DNA of 64,000 nt, from assembly GCF_900104255.1 (NCBI RefSeq), contig NZ_FNKZ01000001.1, positions 558,001 through 622,000 on the forward strand, given 5' to 3'. Of the stretch, positions 25,364 to 33,850 are shown piece by piece. The notes under the pieces are model-generated. The model saw nothing but the letters and a program-made list of their open reading frames with translations, was not told where the DNA came from and ran no database searches. The position numbers were made by a program, and so were the translations under genes. Position 1 is the first letter of the stretch, and every line of letters begins with the position of its first letter. Origin of the DNA: Pseudoxanthomonas sp. CF385. Lineage in GTDB: Bacteria > Pseudomonadota > Gammaproteobacteria > Xanthomonadales > Xanthomonadaceae.

Positions 25364-28057
25364 ATGAACTGGTTGAACGAGATGTTGCAGAGCGATCCGG
25401 ACCCGCAGGAATCCCGCGAATGGATCGATTCCATGCAGGCGGTGATCGAGAAGAACGGCGCCCTGCGTGCTCACCAGTTGCTCGAAGGCATGGTGGAAGT
25501 CACCCGCCGCGCCGGTGCCTACCTGCCGTTCTCGCCGACCACCGAATACGTCAACACCATCGCGCCGCAGAACGAGGCCAAGAGCCCGGGCGACGCCGCG
25601 CTGGAATGGCGCATCCGTTCGATCATCCGCTGGAACGCGATGGCCACCGTGGTGCGCGCCAACCGCAAGCCCGGCGACCTCGGCGGCCACATCGCCAGCT
25701 TCGCCTCCGGCGCGACGCTCTATGACGTGGGCTTCAACCATTTCTGGCGCGCGCCGAGCGACAGCCATCCGGGCGACCTGCTCTTCATCCAGGGCCACAG
25801 CGCGCCGGGCATCTACGCGCGTTCGTTCCTGGAAGGCCGCATCAGCGAGCAGCAGCTCGACAACTTCCGCATGGAAGTCGACGGCCAGGGCATCTCGTCC
25901 TATCCGCACCCGTGGCTGATGCCCGACTACTGGCAGACCCCGACCGTCTCGATGGGCCTGGGCCCGCTGGCGGCGATCTACCAGGCGCAGTTCATGAAGT
26001 ACCTGGAGCACCGCGGCCTGATCGAGAAGTCCGACCGCAAGGTGTGGTGCTTCATCGGCGACGGCGAGAGCGACGAGCCGGAAACCCTCGGCGCGATCGC
26101 GCTGGCCGGCCGCGAAGGCCTCGACAACCTGATCTTCGTCGTCAACTGCAACCTGCAGCGCCTGGACGGCCCGGTGCGCGGCAACGGCAAGATCATCCAG
26201 GAGCTGGAAGGCGTGTTCCGCGGCGGCGGCTGGAACGTCATCAAGCTGCTGTGGGGCAGCTACTGGGATCCGCTCATCGCGCGCGACACCAGCGGCGTGC
26301 TGAAGAAGCTGATGATGGAAACCGTCGACGGCGAGTACCAGAACTGCAAGGCGTTCGGCGGCAAGTACACGCGCGACAACTTCTTCGGCAAGTACCCGGA
26401 GACGGCGGCCATGGTCGCCAACCTGTCCGATGACGACATCTGGCGCCTCAACCGCGGCGGCCATGATCCGCACAAGGTCTACGCGGCCTACCACGAGGCG
26501 GTGAACACCAAGGGCATGCCCACGGTGATCCTGGCCAAGACGGTGAAGGGCTACGGCATGGGTTCGGCGGGCGAATCGCTCAATCCGACCCACCAGACCA
26601 AGAAGCTGGACGACGAAGCCATCCGCACGTTCCGCGACCGCTTCAACATCCCGGTCAGCGACAAGCAGCTGGAAGAGTCGGCGCAGGTGCCGTTCTACCA
26701 CCCGGGCGAGGATTCGCCGGAGATCCAGTACCTGAAGTCGCGCCGTGCCGCGCTCGGCGGCTACCTGCCGCAGCGTCGCCGCAAGGCCAGCGAGTCGTTC
26801 GAGACGCCGAAGCTGGAGGCCTTCGACCGCCTGCTGAAGAGCACCGGCGAGCGCGAGATCTCCACCACGATGGCGTTCGTGCAGGGCCTGAACATCGCGC
26901 TGCGCGACAAGCAGGTCGGCCCGCGCCTGGTGCCGATCGTCGCCGACGAAGCGCGCACCTTCGGCATGGAAGGCATGTTCCGCCAGATCGGCATCTACGC
27001 GCCGTTCGGCCAGAAGTACAAGCCGGTCGATGCCGACCAGCTGATGTACTACCGCGAAGACCAGTCCGGCCAGGTGCTGCAGCAGGGCATCAGCGAGCCG
27101 GGCGCGATGTCGTCGTGGATGGCGGCGGGCACCAGCTATTCGGTCAGCAACGTGCCGATGCTGCCGTTCTACATCTACTACTCGATGTTCGGCTTCCAGC
27201 GCATCGGCGACATCGCCTGGCAGGCGGCGGACATGCGCACGCGCGGCTTCCTGCTGGGCGGCACCGCGGGCCGCACGACGCTCAACGGTGAGGGCCTGCA
27301 GCACGAAGACGGCTTCAGCCACGTCATCGCCGGCAGCATCCCGAACGTGCGCAGCTACGACCCGACCTTCGGCTTCGAAGTCGCGGTGGTCCTGCAGCAC
27401 GGCATGCAGAAGATGCTGCAGGAGCAGGTGGACGAGTACTACTACGTCACCCTGATGAACGAGAACTACACCCACCCGGACATGCCGGAAGGCGCAGCCG
27501 AGGGCATCATCAAGGGCATGTACCTGCTCACCGATGCCGGCAAGCCGAAGAAGGGCGAGCTGCGCGTGCAGCTGCTGGGTAGCGGCACCATCCTGCGCGA
27601 GGCGATCGCGGCGGCCGAGTTGCTGGACAAGGATTTCGGCGTCACCGCCGACATCTGGTCCTGCCCGAGCTTCAACGAGCTGCGTCGCGACGGTTTCGAT
27701 GCCGAGCGCTGGAACCGCCTGAACCCGGAAGCGAAGTCGCCGCGCAAGCCGTACGTGACGGAGCTGCTGGAAGGCCGCCAGGGTCCGGTGATCGCCGCGA
27801 CCGACTACGTGCGTGCGTACAGCGACCAGATCCGCGCCTTCATCCCGGCGGCCTACACGGCGCTGGGCACGGACGGCTTCGGCCGCAGCGACACCCGCGC
27901 CAACCTGCGCCGTCACTTCGAAGTGGACCGCTACTACATCGCCCACGCCGCCATCGCCGCCCTGGCGAAGGAAGGCAAGATGACCGCCAAAGACGTATCC
28001 CGCGCGATCAAGCAGTACAAGATCGATGTGGAGAAGGCGAACCCGGTGACGGTTTGA
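25364..28057 (+). CDS. aceE: Pyruvate dehydrogenase E1 component, homodimeric type
   Basis: 897 residues, the usual length of the homodimeric E1. Thiamine diphosphate/magnesium-binding segment: GDGESDEPETLG to NLIFVVNCNLQRLDGPV. The ATG at 25364 has AGGAG five bases upstream. It decarboxylates pyruvate and passes the acetyl group to the E2 lipoyl domain. aceF and lpd are not downstream, so the rest of the complex must be encoded elsewhere. The right-hand neighbour is the low-GC island, which begins about 100 bases after this gene. Confidence 0.97.
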   Translation: MNWLNEMLQSDPDPQESREWIDSMQAVIEKNGALRAHQLLEGMVEVTRRAGAYLPFSPTTEYVNTIAPQNEAKSPGDAALEWRIRSIIRWNAMATVVRANRKPGDLGGHIASFASGATLYDVGFNHFWRAPSDSHPGDLLFIQGHSAPGIYARSFLEGRISEQQLDNFRMEVDGQGISSYPHPWLMPDYWQTPTVSMGLGPLAAIYQAQFMKYLEHRGLIEKSDRKVWCFIGDGESDEPETLGAIALAGREGLDNLIFVVNCNLQRLDGPVRGNGKIIQELEGVFRGGGWNVIKLLWGSYWDPLIARDTSGVLKKLMMETVDGEYQNCKAFGGKYTRDNFFGKYPETAAMVANLSDDDIWRLNRGGHDPHKVYAAYHEAVNTKGMPTVILAKTVKGYGMGSAGESLNPTHQTKKLDDEAIRTFRDRFNIPVSDKQLEESAQVPFYHPGEDSPEIQYLKSRRAALGGYLPQRRRKASESFETPKLEAFDRLLKSTGEREISTTMAFVQGLNIALRDKQVGPRLVPIVADEARTFGMEGMFRQIGIYAPFGQKYKPVDADQLMYYREDQSGQVLQQGISEPGAMSSWMAAGTSYSVSNVPMLPFYIYYSMFGFQRIGDIAWQAADMRTRGFLLGGTAGRTTLNGEGLQHEDGFSHVIAGSIPNVRSYDPTFGFEVAVVLQHGMQKMLQEQVDEYYYVTLMNENYTHPDMPEGAAEGIIKGMYLLTDAGKPKKGELRVQLLGSGTILREAIAAAELLDKDFGVTADIWSCPSFNELRRDGFDAERWNRLNPEAKSPRKPYVTELLEGRQGPVIAATDYVRAYSDQIRAFIPAAYTALGTDGFGRSDTRANLRRHFEVDRYYIAHAAIAALAKEGKMTAKDVSRAIKQYKIDVEKANPVTV

Positions 28058-28074
28058 TCGAAAGCGAAGTGAGT

Positions 28075-28103
28075 GGAAGCGAGGGACTCAAGTTCCCGCT
28101 TCC
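28075..28103 (+). terminator. Terminator-like hairpin after aceE
   Basis: Stem GGAAGCG / CGCTTCC, extended by GG/CC past a bulged A, 17 bases after the aceE stop. It is followed by a pyrimidine-rich stretch (CTACTTCC) rather than a clean T-run. It also marks the left edge of the island. Confidence 0.5.
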
Positions 28104-28152
28104 CTACTTCCGCGAGCCGCGAAGATGGATCCCTTCTAGAAATCCCTCGCGT

Positions 28153-29109
28153 TCAAGTTCTTGACTCGCGTAAGAAGTCTTTGAACGCGGATATATCGTA
28201 GATGCAGCTTCTGGATACGCCGGAAGTGCGTCCGGCTTTCTTTCGGGGGTGATCATAGATGATCTCTACGGTCTCACGGCTTGCGAGATAGAACAGCACG
28301 GAACCAAGTCCGTGAGGTCTCGTTCCTAGCGGCGCAAGCTGCACGGAGTTGCTGCCCCTTCTGCTTGTGATTGCCTCTATGCAGTAGAAGGCACTAAAGG
28401 GGCAATTTGCCCTTGAGTAGTGAATGTTGCGAGCGGACCCCGTCGTTTGAATTGTCGATTGGTTGCCCAGATAGGTATGGAAAGGATAGCTGGGCCGAAA
28501 GCCTGGTACACCAATGATTGGATAGATGTTCTCTGGTGCGGGTTCAAGAGACTCGACTACGTGTGCTAAGCGACTACCCTCGAACCCTAGTAGAGGTATG
28601 AAGACAGTTTCGCCATCTTCAGTCTTACTGATGCTTGAAAAGCCTGGGAGTGGCGCAATCCCGTTGATCCTTTCGCTCAGATCGAAGAGCTCGCCCTCAG
28701 TAGGTGCGCTGCTCTGCGTGTAGTCGCCAGGTTCAACGTAGAACGCCCTTATTCGAACGTTCGCTTCCCAGTACGCCTTTATCAGAGGGGCCCAGATGTG
28801 GGTGGGAAGGCTGGTCAGATCGATATCGACGGAGCGGCTAGTGCTCATGTCAGCGATGGACAGCAATTGATCAGGGTTTCTTAGCGGAAGCTCGAACGTC
28901 CTGCCGTTCATAGAAGCTGCGGCGATAGTTAGCTCATCTGTCTCAGAAAGCTCAATGACTCTGGTCGGGACGGAATTCGCAAGCGCAGGCCAGGATTTTG
29001 CCCTCTCCTCGGGACCGCAGCCGACCACAAGAACCCCTCCAGGCAACAGTTCGGATTCAGAGAAACTTGAAGTGGAGGTTGTAAAGATTGGCTTGTCAAT
29101 GACTGCCAC
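28153..29109 (-). CDS. Unknown protein, last gene of the island operon
   Basis: 318 residues, GTG start with CAGGA seven bases upstream; its start overlaps the end of the ATPase gene by 14 bases. I do not recognise the family. The N-terminal part, GGVLVVGCGPEERAKSWP, reads like a beta-strand/glycine loop of a Rossmann-type fold. The C-terminal part contains LGTRPHGLGSVLFYLA followed by VEIIYDHPRKKAGRTSG, a pattern reminiscent of the C-terminal strand-helix-strand of nucleotide-sensing Rossmannoid domains; this is only a resemblance. No membrane segment and no nuclease motif is obvious. As the terminal gene it could be an effector or sensor of the system. Confidence 0.7.
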   Translation of the reverse strand: MAVIDKPIFTTSTSSFSESELLPGGVLVVGCGPEERAKSWPALANSVPTRVIELSETDELTIAAASMNGRTFELPLRNPDQLLSIADMSTSRSVDIDLTSLPTHIWAPLIKAYWEANVRIRAFYVEPGDYTQSSAPTEGELFDLSERINGIAPLPGFSSISKTEDGETVFIPLLGFEGSRLAHVVESLEPAPENIYPIIGVPGFRPSYPFHTYLGNQSTIQTTGSARNIHYSRANCPFSAFYCIEAITSRRGSNSVQLAPLGTRPHGLGSVLFYLASRETVEIIYDHPRKKAGRTSGVSRSCIYDISAFKDFLRESRT

Positions 29110-30991
29110 GATAGAAGTCCTGAAACAGCGCCATCTGTGCTGGAAGGGTGGAATCAGCGCTTCTGTTCTGTCGCTTCAGAACTCGTGCTATGTACATGTG
29201 AGGATTCTCGGAAAGTCCACGCAACTCTTCATAGCTGAGAGTCATCTTCCTCTTGTGACGATAACTGTACTCAAAGAACGCGGTAAAAATCGGGTGCAGC
29301 GCGTAGTCGTAGTCTCGAACATCTTCAGATTGCTGAAGCTTGGTGCCTGCGCGTCGAATGAGCGCCAGGTGCATTACCGCATTCTCAAGTAACTCTCTTG
29401 TGATGGCGGAACTCCCGAGATCATCATTGCTAACAAGGTCGAACTGCGTAATCTCGGCGGTATGTCCAACCGGATCCTCGGCCATGACCTGGAAGATTCT
29501 GCCCAAGCTGAGCACGAGCTTGGCAACCCTAGCGCCTAGTATTGAGAGACCTTCAAGCTCGCGAAGGTTCTTTCGCCCTATGTACTGCGCGGCTCTCGTC
29601 TGAACTTCTGCAGATACCAATCCTTGAAACGATGAGCTATTGCTGGCATCAAGTTGCATCTGGATCGATCTGTGCACTAGCTCCAGAAGGTACCTGATGT
29701 TCCCCGAAGCTAATTTGCATATAACCTTCCAGCCGCAGTAGTACTTCCTAATCCCTGACTTGCGAGACTTGATGGTAAACAGCATGGATGTCTTGTAATT
29801 CTCAAAACGAGTCTTCCATGCTTTGAAGTCTTCACTAGTCATCGCCGACTGCAAGCTATCAATGCTTGACCCTTCAAGAACGTATAGGCAGTACCTCTCA
29901 AGCTGGCTCATGCTTTCATAGCGCGCCCGCGCTTTTCCAGACAGTGTTAGGAGGATGATCTGGTTGGTGCTATCAAACGTCTTGGATAGCCCGAGAAGAT
30001 CTGCTTCCTCTTCAGGACTCAATGACTGGAAGATACCGATAAGCGCGCCTGGGCTCACCACACCAGTGCCGCCGTGTGACCTGATGCGGCGCGCGCATAC
30101 AAGAGCGGCGAAGTTCTCAAAGTCTGAGTCAGATGTAAGTCTTTCGGCGATATCGATCCGTCTAAAATCCGCGGGATCGACCAGAAGTTCCGAGGCGTTG
30201 AGAGTGCACCTTTCTCTAATTCCGAGCTCTCGAACACCGATCTTGAAAGTGTACGGAGGGCGTGCATGCTTGATCAGCGTATTAACGACCCGCTGCTGGT
30301 AGGCGGACAAGTTCTCAAACTCGTCAATAAGAAAGAAGAACGTTGTCTTTCCTAGAATTCCCGATGCCTGTAGGCAGTCCATCAGTGCATCGATAGGGGC
30401 TCCGAGGGCTGTTAAGTCAATCGAGTTAGATCGCCCTATCGAGTTGACTGTCGTTTCCAATGTGATCAGGCGTTGCTTGAGCTTCTCTATTGCGTCGGCG
30501 ACTGAAGTGGCCTCTGGCATGCTGAATGAGTTCGAAAACGAACCAAGTGATTGAGCGCTTAGCTGCTCAAACTCGCGATGCGTGCGTGAATACCATTCAA
30601 AGAAATCCAGCGCTGCAGAGGACAGTAGCAAGTTCAGGTAGTGACCAAATATTCGCTCCCACTGCGGAAGCGAGGCCTCAGGGCCTTGGAAGGCGGCCAC
30701 TCGACCGGTGTTGATCCTTAGATAGATCCCAACATAGCCCCACTGATCTAGACGCTTTGGTTGGTCGTTACCTAGGGCGAATCTCCCTTTGTACGACAGC
30801 GACTTGAGAGTTGTGGTCTTCCCAGTCCCTCTGCCACCTATCAGAAAGCAAGGTTGTTCTGTAACAAGTTCTGGAAAGTAGCCAGGCTGGGTGAACTGTT
30901 CAAACAGCTCCGCACCATTGTGCTCGGCGCGGAAGTTCGAGAACGCATCCGCCAACTGCTGGTCGATCACTAACAAATTAGGCTCAGCCAC
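29096..30991 (-). CDS. ORC/CDC6-like AAA+ ATPase of the island operon
   Basis: 631 residues, GTG start with a strong AGGAGG eight bases upstream, two bases after the PRTase-like stop codon. Walker A is GGRGTGKT (52-59) and Walker B is FFFLIDEFENL (218-228). The segment YVGIYLRINTGRVAAFQGP (about 86-104) and overall layout resemble the ORC-CDC6 family AAA ATPases of bacterial accessory operons. The C-terminal half is helical and may hold a winged-helix region. It probably acts as the ATP-driven sensor or switch. Base composition is well below that of flanking genes: 28 of 60 bases are G or C in 29161-29220. Confidence 0.8.
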   Translation of the reverse strand: MAEPNLLVIDQQLADAFSNFRAEHNGAELFEQFTQPGYFPELVTEQPCFLIGGRGTGKTTTLKSLSYKGRFALGNDQPKRLDQWGYVGIYLRINTGRVAAFQGPEASLPQWERIFGHYLNLLLSSAALDFFEWYSRTHREFEQLSAQSLGSFSNSFSMPEATSVADAIEKLKQRLITLETTVNSIGRSNSIDLTALGAPIDALMDCLQASGILGKTTFFFLIDEFENLSAYQQRVVNTLIKHARPPYTFKIGVRELGIRERCTLNASELLVDPADFRRIDIAERLTSDSDFENFAALVCARRIRSHGGTGVVSPGALIGIFQSLSPEEEADLLGLSKTFDSTNQIILLTLSGKARARYESMSQLERYCLYVLEGSSIDSLQSAMTSEDFKAWKTRFENYKTSMLFTIKSRKSGIRKYYCGWKVICKLASGNIRYLLELVHRSIQMQLDASNSSSFQGLVSAEVQTRAAQYIGRKNLRELEGLSILGARVAKLVLSLGRIFQVMAEDPVGHTAEITQFDLVSNDDLGSSAITRELLENAVMHLALIRRAGTKLQQSEDVRDYDYALHPIFTAFFEYSYRHKRKMTLSYEELRGLSENPHMYIARVLKRQNRSADSTLPAQMALFQDFYRGSH

Positions 30992-30993
30992 GG

Positions 30994-31914
30994 TCAGCGC
31001 CTCCTAATCAAAGGTTGCCAATTCTCAGACTCATGCCAAAAGATCGGAAGTGTCGCGTCCGGCACGCCGTGTTCGAATGCAAGTGCTAGAGCTTGTCCTT
31101 TGTAGCCGAAGCATTCGCTATCTGGTATGCCGGCTCGTGCGCTGGCGGCTCTTATGAACTCAATCCCAGAGTCTCTCATTCCAGGTGGCCAGAAGAGCGA
31201 ATCCTCATGCACGAAGTTCTCCCTTGCATCTAGCTCATGGGCAGGCATCAGCAGCAGTGAAGGACATTCACGCCGGACCACCTCCGATCCTTCAAATGTT
31301 GACACTAGGGGGCAGTAGACAATCGTAGAGTTGTGCTGTGCAACAACGTCGCGGTAAGTTGAAGTTTCGCCAGGCCAGACATCTCTATGATGCGTCCATG
31401 CCGACGTCACCTGGTCGCCACTGCCTATGAAATCGTCTAAGAGTAAAACCGGGCGATCTGGCTCAACCGCCATTACACGAAGAGCAGCCTCGGGCGTAAA
31501 GATCTGAGATTGAGGCAAGTCAAGCTTGTGCCGTGCTAGACGAGCGAAGTGTGGGCCGCTCTCGGAAGCGTTTGGATTTCTTGCCTCGACGTAAGTTGCA
31601 ACCAGCTTGTCGCGGAACGCGCGCCATTGATCGCGATGCTGGGAGCCGTGGCGTTCGATTAGTTGCTTGTGAGCGCTCAGGTTGTGGAATGCACTCACCA
31701 AAAGAGCATCAGTAATCTCAGCAGAAACGAAGATGAACGCGTTCAGGCAGCATAGCGCGTGGCGCTCTTCTTCAGCCCGAAAGTTTTTGAGCCACCCCCT
31801 CGGATCAAACGTGCTTGTTGCCGGCCACAGCCCGATTGACGCAAAAAAATCTGCTTTCTGAAGAATGGAGGATCTAGAAGACTCTCGTGGGCGCTGACGA
31901 GATACGGCACTCAT
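30994..31914 (-). CDS. Phosphoribosyltransferase-like protein of the island operon
   Basis: 306 residues. VLLLDDFIGSGDQ (156-168) matches the type I phosphoribosyltransferase PRPP-binding loop pattern (hydrophobics, two acids, then S/T-G), which suggests binding of PRPP or a related nucleotide. The N-terminal 130 residues are helical and charged. The ATG overlaps the methyltransferase stop by one base (TAATG), so translation is coupled. No purine or pyrimidine salvage genes accompany it, so a role in signalling or nucleotide modification inside the system is more likely than salvage. The enzyme activity is inferred from one motif only. Confidence 0.72.
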   Translation of the reverse strand: MSAVSRQRPRESSRSSILQKADFFASIGLWPATSTFDPRGWLKNFRAEEERHALCCLNAFIFVSAEITDALLVSAFHNLSAHKQLIERHGSQHRDQWRAFRDKLVATYVEARNPNASESGPHFARLARHKLDLPQSQIFTPEAALRVMAVEPDRPVLLLDDFIGSGDQVTSAWTHHRDVWPGETSTYRDVVAQHNSTIVYCPLVSTFEGSEVVRRECPSLLLMPAHELDARENFVHEDSLFWPPGMRDSGIEFIRAASARAGIPDSECFGYKGQALALAFEHGVPDATLPIFWHESENWQPLIRRR

Positions 31915-32972
31915 TAAATGCTCTCAATCCCAAGCCTTCTCAGGGCATCGCGCAGGCGTTCGATAGTTGTAAAGGGTGCGCCGGTGCCCACATAGGTGGC
32001 CGAAATATCGGAGAAGTTGTCTATCAGCAGCTGTTGGAGCTCTCTTGTGCTGAATGGAGGGGATGGGACCAGTGCAATCAGGCAATCGGACATCACGAAC
32101 TTTCGTTGCGCTCCGATGATGCAAATCTTTCTTCGATCTGGCCTCCCAACTCTCGGTATCACCACAGCTGGGCCTGACAGAGTGCTGGGCACGCTGGGTG
32201 ATCGGAAGGAGCTGTGGAGAACTTTGTTGTGCTTTAGGTTGGTAGTATGAAGAAACTCCACAGCCTTCTTGGATTTCGACGGCACAGCTGAATGCACATG
32301 TACCCTGCCGCGCTTGATGGTTAAAGACCGCTCCATATTCACGACTTCCAGGGTCGTTGGAGAGCGTGGCTCTGGCACCTTTGCTCTTACATTCACAAGT
32401 GCGGTCTCTACAAAACAGTTTCTGAAGGTCCTGCGACCAACTACGCGGTTGATCTTCAAACTCCAGTTCTCAGAGAGATAGGCACGAGCATCGGCATCTC
32501 GTGATCCATACAAGGCGCTGATTGGAAGGACGGTAGATATCTCGCCCTTCGAACTTAAGTAGCGCTGGGATTCGAGAACGAACTTGAGAGCTGGGCTGCA
32601 GCTAATTTCCGTCCCGCAAGGAAGTACAAAGACGCCCTCCGTGCTCGCGCGCGAGAACGGGGGGTTAAGAAGAACGACGTCGACACGTCCTTTGATGCCT
32701 TTGAGGGCTTTGCAGCTCTTCGACGAGTTTGACGATAGGAAGTTGCACGTTCCTATTTGCCAGCTCGGATACGTCCGCTTCAGAGCGTCGGTGAACTCGC
32801 GCTGGATGTCGATCGCAGTGATATCGGCGTGAGGCCAACGGGCCGCTGCACTCACTAGAAGATTTCCGGAACCAGCAGAAAAATCAGCCACCAGCTTTGG
32901 CTCGTCAACTGCAACGAGTTCAACCAGCTCTTTCGCTAAATGGGGAGGCGTTGGGTAGTAGTCGAAATTCAT
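31914..32972 (-). CDS. N6-adenine DNA methyltransferase (M.TaqI-like layout)
   Basis: 352 residues. YYPTPP (5-10) matches the motif X region, DFSAGSGN (30-37) is the SAM-binding motif I, AIDIQ (53-57) motif II, and NPPF (103-106) the catalytic motif IV of amino-methyltransferases. The C-terminal ~150 residues should be the target recognition part, as in gamma-type enzymes. GTGAGG precedes the ATG. No restriction endonuclease gene lies in the operon, so the methylation may protect host DNA from another component or mark it for the ATPase. The recognition sequence cannot be read from the protein. Confidence 0.88.
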   Translation of the reverse strand: MNFDYYPTPPHLAKELVELVAVDEPKLVADFSAGSGNLLVSAAARWPHADITAIDIQREFTDALKRTYPSWQIGTCNFLSSNSSKSCKALKGIKGRVDVVLLNPPFSRASTEGVFVLPCGTEISCSPALKFVLESQRYLSSKGEISTVLPISALYGSRDADARAYLSENWSLKINRVVGRRTFRNCFVETALVNVRAKVPEPRSPTTLEVVNMERSLTIKRGRVHVHSAVPSKSKKAVEFLHTTNLKHNKVLHSSFRSPSVPSTLSGPAVVIPRVGRPDRRKICIIGAQRKFVMSDCLIALVPSPPFSTRELQQLLIDNFSDISATYVGTGAPFTTIERLRDALRRLGIESI

Positions 32973-33007
32973 GGTTGCCTCACCAGAGCTTTCCTTGCTG
33001 CCTGAGA

Positions 33008-33253
33008 TTAGTTCGAGCGTTGTAGAAGCTCTAGAACATCCACTTCTAGTGCCCTTGCAAGTCGTTCCAATCCATCAATTGAAATGTTTGTCACGCAGCG
33101 CTCCAGCTGTGAAACATATGTGCGATGGAACTGTGCTAGCTCAGCTAGCTGCTCCTGACTGAGTCCGCGACCTTTACGTAGGCGGCTCAAGTTGGTGGAT
33201 ATCCGCTCACGGGCAGTTGCTTGGGTGGGCGTCGATTGTGACTTTCTAGGCAT
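33008..33253 (-). CDS. XRE-family transcriptional regulator, first gene of the island operon
   Basis: 81 residues with a Cro/C1-type helix-turn-helix (about 17-76). LSQEQLAELAQFHRTYVSQLERCVTNISIDGLERLARALEV closely follows the controller (C) protein pattern of restriction-modification systems. It is separated from the methyltransferase gene by 35 bases. The putative promoter just upstream has its -10 element inside a small palindrome (33290-33302), consistent with autoregulation that would delay expression of the downstream genes when the island enters a new host. Confidence 0.9.
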   Translation of the reverse strand: MPRKSQSTPTQATARERISTNLSRLRKGRGLSQEQLAELAQFHRTYVSQLERCVTNISIDGLERLARALEVDVLELLQRSN

Positions 33254-33289
33254 GAGACCAGATTCATGCCCTACTGCTTGACAATCTAC

Positions 33290-33320
33290 AGATTATAAAT
33301 CTACTGTTTTTAAATCTCAT
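33290..33320 (-). promoter_or_regulatory. Promoter of the island operon with overlapping palindrome
   Basis: On the minus strand a perfect TATAAT (33292-33297) lies 17 bases from ATGAGA (33315-33320, four of six matches to TTGACA). The -10 element sits within AGATT-ATA-AATCT (33290-33302), a candidate operator. The predicted transcript would start about 30 bases before the XRE start codon. Confidence 0.6.
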
Positions 33321-33388
33321 TGACCGTCACGAGAGATGTGTGACGGGGAGCCAAGAGACACTTAACGAGCAGCCAGGAGATTTGAGTC

Positions 33389-33811
33389 ATGGAGTGGGCA
33401 GAACAAGATCAAGCCAAAGGCGCGGGCAATCTGCATCCCGGCGCCCAACATCATCGCCCGGAGCCGCCGACAGGCCTTGAGTCCGTTCTCAGTCTGCTAC
33501 AGGGCGAAGCACTGGATGTACTGGCCGATGCGGGCATCACTGGCTACGAAGGCGATCGTCTTGATCGACTTGCAGCCGCCGCGAGACGCTAGGCCGAAGA
33601 CTGCCTAGACCGCATCCGCTGTCTGCTTGATCTGCTCAACGCGTGCCTGCCCCAGCTGCAGCCACACCCGAATGTGCTGCTCATCAGTGCCTACCGACAC
33701 CTCACTGCGCTTGTGGCCGATCTCGAGCGATGGCAGGCGCTGGCCGAGAACGCCTCGTACTACCGCGATCACCCACACGTCGCCGTACAGATCGCTGCTA
33801 CACGAAGGTGA
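33389..33811 (+). pseudogene. Hypothetical gene interrupted by an in-frame amber codon
   Basis: An ATG with AGGAG upstream opens a frame of 67 residues that ends in a TAG at 33590-33592. The same frame then continues without interruption for another 72 codons (starting AEDCLDRIRCLLDLLNACL and ending VAVQIAATRR) to a TGA at 33809. The second part has the amphipathic helical character and codon use of a real gene, so a single base change probably split a protein of about 140 residues. Readthrough or a sequencing error are alternatives. No family recognised. It lies just outside the low-GC island. Confidence 0.55.
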
Positions 33812-33822
33812 AGCCGCAGGTG

Positions 33823-33850
33823 GCGGGTCGAGCGCTTCGCTTCGACCCGC
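33823..33850. terminator. Hairpin between the interrupted gene and the DUF3817 gene
   Basis: Stem GCGGGTCGA / TCGACCCGC, nine perfect pairs, with an inner GCG/CGC extension. It starts 12 bases after the TGA of the interrupted gene and is followed by TAGAAT, which could be a -10 element for the next gene. There is no T-run. Confidence 0.45.

Follow-up and report, generated by a model that had tools for sequence, protein, structure and literature searches.

Closest described systems and the locus examined

In retrons and in a defence pair with DprA (for the latter, PMC9122126) the effector is, or probably is, a phosphoribosyltransferase (PRTase) protein, and in those parts of the literature available to us the pathway that such effectors target is described as unknown. 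The locus reported here lies in Pseudoxanthomonas sp. CF385, in a stretch of 64,000 nt (contig NZ_FNKZ01000001.1, positions 558,001–622,000) which we call the window and within which all of its positions are numbered. It holds a minus-strand operon of five genes, four of which, encoding a PRTase-CE protein, an ORC-CDC6-like ATPase, a CARF protein and an adenine-type DNA methyltransferase, are a conserved core, here termed the quartet. The main known role of CARF sensors is to read the messengers made by Cas10 and CBASS. In relatives, the quartet repeatedly adjoins genes for dUTPase or ThyX, a link invisible in the window alone.

Operon organization and identity of the encoded proteins

The listing of open reading frames (ORFs) gives, in the direction of transcription, an XRE-type helix-turn-helix (HTH) regulator (33008–33253), the methyltransferase (31914–32972), the PRTase-CE protein (30994–31914), the ORC-CDC6-like ATPase (29096–30991) and the CARF-type protein (28153–29109), joined in turn by a 35-base gap, a 1-base overlap, a 2-base gap and a 14-base overlap. 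These are the genes and spacings of the preliminary description of this DNA, and the lower GC of the block that it had noticed was also found (about 0.50–0.54, against 0.65–0.73 in the flanks). Searches of Pfam and PADLOC bore out its naming of the first four products, whereas the fifth, which it had left as unknown, proved to be of CARF type.

The PRTase-CE protein, our proposed effector, carries a DDFIGSG motif and matches PF24390 in Pfam (E 5.2e-47) and the PADLOC model PRTase_III-A (3.6e-19). The acidic pair that binds phosphoribosyl pyrophosphate (PRPP), with Gly-Ser/Thr-Gly, is present in 49/49 homologues, as in PRTase fold type I, and structure comparison supports this fold; a PDB sequence search with the PRTase profile gave no match at E 0.1. 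The ATPase, proposed as a switch, is a P-loop protein with GGRGTGKT and DEFEN motifs that matches PF24389 (E 3.1e-131), is the one ORC-CDC6-like match in its own genome and has homologues of which 49 of 50 share DE[YF]EN. The methyltransferase has DFSAGSG and NPPF motifs, is of the adenine-N6 type by motif and matches MTS (1.9e-8) and N6_Mtase (5.4e-6); NPPF is found in 48 of 51 homologues, and the closest PDB entries by sequence are HsdM subunits, M.BseCI and M.TaqI. The XRE protein matches HTH_3 in Pfam (3.8e-12) and, as its best PADLOC match, Control_protein of restriction–modification (R-M) systems (2.2e-18).

The CARF-type protein, the proposed sensor, which we read as a tandem CARF, matches the PADLOC model CARF6 CARF_CARF_CARF over its length with an E value of 4.5e-97; these models are reportedly named after the 2020 classification of Makarova et al. 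Its structure model (pLDDT 85) ranks with Csm6, Card1 and Can2 and has the Rossmann-like CARF fold, and the first 19 VIA rows for it are all CARF proteins, within VIA-align lists that leave room for families outside them. A GTK-type ligand loop after the central strand is the rule in CARF proteins, and G[TS][KR]P occurs in all 52 homologues at this place, between E255-260 and H264-276 of the model; the window protein has GTRP at 262, with R replacing K. A PDB sequence search with the CARF profile found nothing at E 0.1.

Conservation of the quartet as a unit

Genome contigs were scanned once, with a profile of the CARF alignment, which yielded 45 loci; 46 carrier genomes were considered. The loci are spread over Pseudomonadota, Acidobacteriota, Planctomycetota, Actinomycetota, Myxococcota, Nitrospirota, Ignavibacteriota and Bacteroidota, with one metagenome-assembled genome (MAG) labelled Akkermansia, and 41 of them hold all four quartet genes on one strand, so chance clustering can be rejected. 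Within these 41 the methyltransferase stands two genes off in L046 and is in two ORFs in L014, and some loci are cut by contig ends. As for the exceptions, the quartet of L020 is split over two contigs, the remainder having been located on the other, no methyltransferase was found in L021, and neither PRTase nor ORC was found in L028 and L037. The methyltransferase gene comes first in the window, in L002, L003 and L005 and in the Klebsiella plasmid set L067, and last in most others. The expectation that the genes would recur at different chromosomal sites in other genomes thus held, at varied sites and in several phyla, for four of the five: the XRE gene is accessory, with one weak match in 48 loci and one borderline HTH gene in L046.

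The pairwise distances of the four proteins correlate over 48 rows with r values of 0.80–0.93, a level reached in none of 500 permutations. In the ORC tree the closest partner of the window ATPase is that of a Stenotrophomonas MAG (support 100/100), followed by that of an Ignavibacteria MAG (94/97, not starred), whereas a Xanthomonas copy belongs to another clade, which indicates horizontal transfer. The locus labelled Akkermansia (L024) is placed inside a Burkholderiales group and so may reflect a binning error.

Uracil and thymidine genes beside the quartet

A uracil or thymidine gene stands beside the quartet in 17 of the 45 loci. A dimeric dUTPase lies directly upstream of the PRTase gene in seven (L011, L014, L020, L023, L024, L027 and L032), a trimeric dUTPase is found in another seven (L003, L006, L010, L025, L029, L031 and L036, on the opposite strand in L006 and L025), a DCD-like gene is present in L013, a UDG-like gene lies 317 bases away in L026, and ThyX follows the methyltransferase in L006 and L017. 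Nine ORFs had been named as possible ThyX by motif; a ThyX profile built from two recovered only those of L006 and L017, which Pfam confirms. For the neighbour proteins we scanned 125 of 208, hand-chosen with near ones preferred, and as a control 125 of 170 proteins from 20 stretches in 20 of the same genomes. Among the neighbours dUTPase_2 is the commonest Pfam family (5), followed by ABC_tran, Resolvase, dUTPase and Phage_integrase (4 each), and no dUTPase appears among the 25 of 117 control Pfam families listed. All 15 dUTPase, DCD and UDG matches in the locus DNA lie within 320 bases of the quartet, whereas about 507 kb of the 591 kb of flanking DNA lies farther than 1 kb from it, in a search whose profiles were seeded from quartet-near genes and are biased to those.

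Loci from plasmid and phage records, examined afterwards, have such a gene in six of nine cases (2 dUTPase, 4 ThyX), a count that leaves out the near copies H2, H5–H30, H32 and H41, except H6, which was examined. A dimeric dUTPase again lies directly upstream of the PRTase gene in a Moraxella plasmid and an Acinetobacter record, and the four rhizobial plasmid loci (L091, where it is in two ORFs, L092, L094 and L095) all have ThyX upstream, the annotation of L094 placing thyX next to a DNA methyltransferase. These four are beyond the reach of the methyltransferase profile and have distant ORC and CARF matches, the ORC match being in pieces in L091 and L092. Neither dUTPase nor ThyX was detected in the Paraburkholderia, Klebsiella and Diaphorobacter loci, and ThyX was present in four of the five plasmid records examined last.

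On the ORC tree the dimeric-dUTPase loci form a single clade of 8 (100/99). For the trimeric label at least four changes are needed when only labelled rows are considered, and a number this low also came up in 47 of 500 shuffles. One explanation for the adjacency would be a landing-site effect, i.e. insertion next to a housekeeping dut gene. Two strong trimeric dUTPases (E below 1e-19) occur in 6 of the 46 genomes, and since the quartet-linked copy is among them in all six, we disfavour this explanation; G009 (L010), the seventh trimeric case, has no strong copy other than that at the quartet. Strong dimeric dUTPases occur in eight genomes, directly upstream of the PRTase gene in seven, and three weaker dUTPase_2 matches were seen in G008 and G014. 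Both G005 and G016 have ThyA, and their sole ThyX match coincides with the quartet-linked ThyX. The one strong trimeric dUTPase of the window's own genome is about 39 kb from the operon.

Proposed mode of action

The linkage to dUTPase and ThyX in relatives hints at how the quartet may work. We read it as a rare mobile conflict system, probably directed against phages or plasmids, a reading that we hold at somewhat less than an even chance. It draws on the observed conservation of the quartet as a unit, its rarity and mobility, the many PADLOC matches among its neighbours, the PRPP motif, the part that PRTases play in retrons and with DprA, and the linked uracil and thymidine genes; the defence role, self-marking, the ligand and the pyrimidine target are inferred. 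The methyltransferase would mark self DNA, the ORC-CDC6-like ATPase would act as a DNA-linked switch, the CARF-type protein would bind a nucleotide ligand and gate the response, and the PRTase effector would use PRPP either to form a pyrimidine nucleotide or to deplete one, leaving replicating DNA short of dTTP or taking up uracil; the dUTPase, ThyX, DCD-like or UDG-like protein of many relatives would buffer the disturbance of pyrimidine deoxynucleotides. The preliminary description had interpreted the operon as a defence or conflict system, and this overall view is partly supported. Because unrelated families of uracil-avoiding enzymes are linked to the quartet again and again, the target pathway of a PRTase effector becomes directly testable.

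Several observations weigh against this reading. The window's own operon contains no uracil or thymidine gene, none was detected beside the quartet in 28 of the 45 loci, and the dimeric dUTPase of G038, near a contig end, has no detected quartet gene beside it. In the structure comparison, uracil PRTases stood above purine PRTases by only about 1 Z. In addition, the part of the AvcID defence report available to us (PMC10511110) describes protection as unaltered by over-expression of dut or loss of ung, and so dUTP is not always the lever.

The same linkage bears on two further explanations. In the first, which we consider unlikely, a complex of ATPase, CARF protein and PRTase would perform a uracil-based check of self and non-self, attacking or silencing uracil-containing DNA or DNA without the methyl mark, while dUTPase, ThyX or the UDG-like protein would prevent self-attack by keeping host uracil low. 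Such a check needs uracil-poor host DNA, which the linked dUTPase, ThyX and UDG-like genes fit, but profile scans identified no nuclease or uracil-reading domain in the core, and the UDG-like gene of L026 is a single case and stands at a distance. In the second, thymine or uracil within DNA would be the substrate of the PRTase, ATPase and methyltransferase, and the pool of precursors would be shaped by dUTPase and ThyX. This would also account for the linkage, and thymidylate synthase and 5-hmdU kinase are listed among validated defence domains in the available part of one survey (PMC13092281). Against such base modification, which we judge very improbable, aGPT-PPlase, 5-hmdU kinase and other known thymine-modifying domains are absent from the Pfam and NCBIfam matches of the five proteins, the neighbours having been scanned in part.

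Possible sources of a cyclic messenger

The CARF fold raises the question of whether the quartet could be an effector module that listens to the cyclic oligonucleotides of a resident CBASS or type III CRISPR system, the CARF protein opening the PRTase. The window's own genome does have two SMODS nucleotidyltransferase genes over the cut-off (G000:C1:1894313-1896961), about 1.3 Mb from the operon. Among the 46 carriers, however, a Cas10 palm over the cut-off is found in 5, in a search that also gives matches in E. coli, probably GGDEF cross-hits, and SMODS in 9, while 33 have neither, many of the assemblies being drafts or MAGs and other cyclases not having been searched; the quartet itself contains no cyclase that we could find. 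We therefore disfavour the effector of a resident CBASS or CRISPR system and regard it as quite improbable. As most carrier genomes show neither synthase, the quartet may depend on a new messenger or put the CARF fold to a new use.

A bolder form of our preferred reading, that of a CARF-gated PRTase conflict system, makes the quartet a distinct immune class. Here a CARF sensor with no known cyclic-oligonucleotide synthase would release the PRTase, collapsing dTTP or raising dUTP, so that replicating invader DNA would starve or fill with uracil; the host would be protected by methylation and, in many lineages, by a dedicated dUTPase or ThyX. We think this possible, if rather unlikely, and slightly less so given the ThyX genes of the four rhizobial plasmid loci.

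Rarity, mobility and neighbourhood

The CARF model matched in 2 of 398 genomes of the phylum and 2 of 369 of the class, the window's own genome being counted in both. The quartet is present in 1 of the 397 other sampled phylum genomes, and the second match in the class is interrupted by one in-frame stop. The quartet is mobile: a search with the ATPase matched 153 plasmid records, 129 of them from Klebsiella and 5 with 80% coverage, and a conjugative Klebsiella plasmid (L067, OW959907.1, 5858–10909), like similar plasmid records, carries a distant quartet whose genes run in the same order as in the window (methyltransferase, PRTase, ORC, CARF). By near identity this Klebsiella-type set occurs in 4 of 5426 E. 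coli genomes, all plasmid-borne and in strains named C600 or J53. A scan of viral contigs with the CARF alignment gave no match.

The quartet is also close to defence genes, as the preliminary description had supposed, with recombinases nearby too. At E<=1e-15 the 125 neighbour proteins matched 99 PADLOC families and the 125 control proteins two, namely mad3 (4 members in both sets) and mad8; as the families overlap and one protein can match many, this is a contrast of kind and not a count of proteins. The defence kinds include type I M and S subunits, IIG and BrxL. In an 8-member neighbour cluster (7 loci) the three members scanned are all integrases, the one member scanned of a 4-member cluster is resolvase-like, and three scanned members of cluster c7 (5 loci) are ordinary ABC transporters. 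Six same-strand ORFs of 85–150 aa adjoin the quartet in other loci, one with a borderline HTH, one with a transposase match and four with no match.

These neighbourhoods bear on the idea, which we hold in strong doubt, that the quartet serves mobile elements in their replication or maintenance, the ORC-like ATPase being the initiator and dUTPase or ThyX supplying nucleotides. The ATPase family, the plasmid copies and the integrases nearby would suit it; set against these, the 45 loci stand at varied sites, few were noticed beside known replication genes, and defence genes are enriched beside the quartet. We know of no replication role for a CARF–PRTase pair.

Some individual neighbours were also noted. 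A gene for a NACHT-domain protein (L065, 3149–5248) lies just upstream of the dUTPase–quartet operon of the Moraxella plasmid, and a SIR2 family protein gene (L091, 11214–12785) lies downstream of the quartet-like set of a Rhizobium plasmid. In a record labelled as an Acinetobacter phage (L068, CAKLQF020000018.1) the quartet is flanked by ordinary genes of a chromosome (cstA, efp and tRNA-Val), and this may be host DNA. Same-strand partners seen in single loci are a 222-aa protein with no Pfam match (L008, 12008–12676) and a protein with a T5orf172/MUG113 domain (L047, 7801–9060).

The site of the operon in the window

The operon occupies an interval (28059–33848) that separates the conserved aceE from the DUF3817 region. 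Eight relatives have a match to the DUF3817 gene, and in all five that were compared at the site the aceE and DUF3817 regions match, with 1.9–5.0 kb of other sequence between them and no DNA match to any part of the operon; because the relatives hold other genes there, including, in one of them, a gene for a TrlF family AAA-like ATPase (L062, 4311–7145, minus strand), we regard this as a variable interval and not as a proven empty site. Just upstream of the XRE gene is a weak sigma-70-like promoter match on the minus strand (33292–33320, ATGAGA-17-TATAAT), the sole one in 27900–33600, where 2.8 are expected in shuffles. Several AGATT/AATCT motifs at 33254–33320, around this promoter-like site, could be an operator; a repeat search upstream of the XRE gene gave one weak inverted pair and nothing convincing.

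Comparison with known systems

No description of the quartet was found in the literature searched, which included few subscription papers and was available in part (among others PMC12839542, PMC4012209, PMC12669027, PMC7824862, PMC9503650, PMC13092281 and PMC7159879), nor was its link to dUTPase and ThyX seen there. Since somebody named the Pfam families PF24389 and PF24390, an earlier computational mention is quite possible. In agreement with the preliminary description, the operon matches none of the layouts of the named systems compared, and we disfavour its identity as plain R-M, retron, MADS or BREX.

With R-M systems that have a control protein it shares a methyltransferase and a C-protein-like regulator, but the five proteins include no restriction endonuclease to pair with the methyltransferase: the endonuclease-model matches are to the HTH part only of REase_II (9.1e-10, XRE residues 15–78) and to fused IIG models on the methyltransferase part. 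No recurrent nuclease partner was identified among the relatives' neighbours scanned. Of the Mad proteins that make up MADS, the five match only Mad2, which the methyltransferase resembles (7.5e-16), and Mad8, which the ATPase resembles weakly (3.5e-4), the mad3 and mad8 models also matching control proteins. For the DefensePredictor systems, the accessible part of the report (PMC13092281) gives thymidylate synthase as validated and dUTPase as predicted among defence domains and has UDG and PRTase in figure legends; CARF and ORC were not found in its main text, and the ATPase matches DS41_1 weakly (1.5e-4) at the P-loop end only.

The CARF6 CARF_CARF_CARF model of PADLOC describes one gene, matched here by the fifth gene of the operon. 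Retron type III-A effectors are related through PRTase homology, but the partners of the quartet PRTase are an ORC ATPase, a CARF protein and a methyltransferase, and general scans, made with no search for reverse transcriptase or RNA families, matched no reverse transcriptase model among the five proteins. The DprA–PRTase pair, as described in the available part of PMC9122126, resembles the quartet in that a PRTase, as probable effector, adjoins a DNA-handling partner; the quartet, in contrast, is without DprA and has a four-gene core that includes a CARF protein and a methyltransferase.

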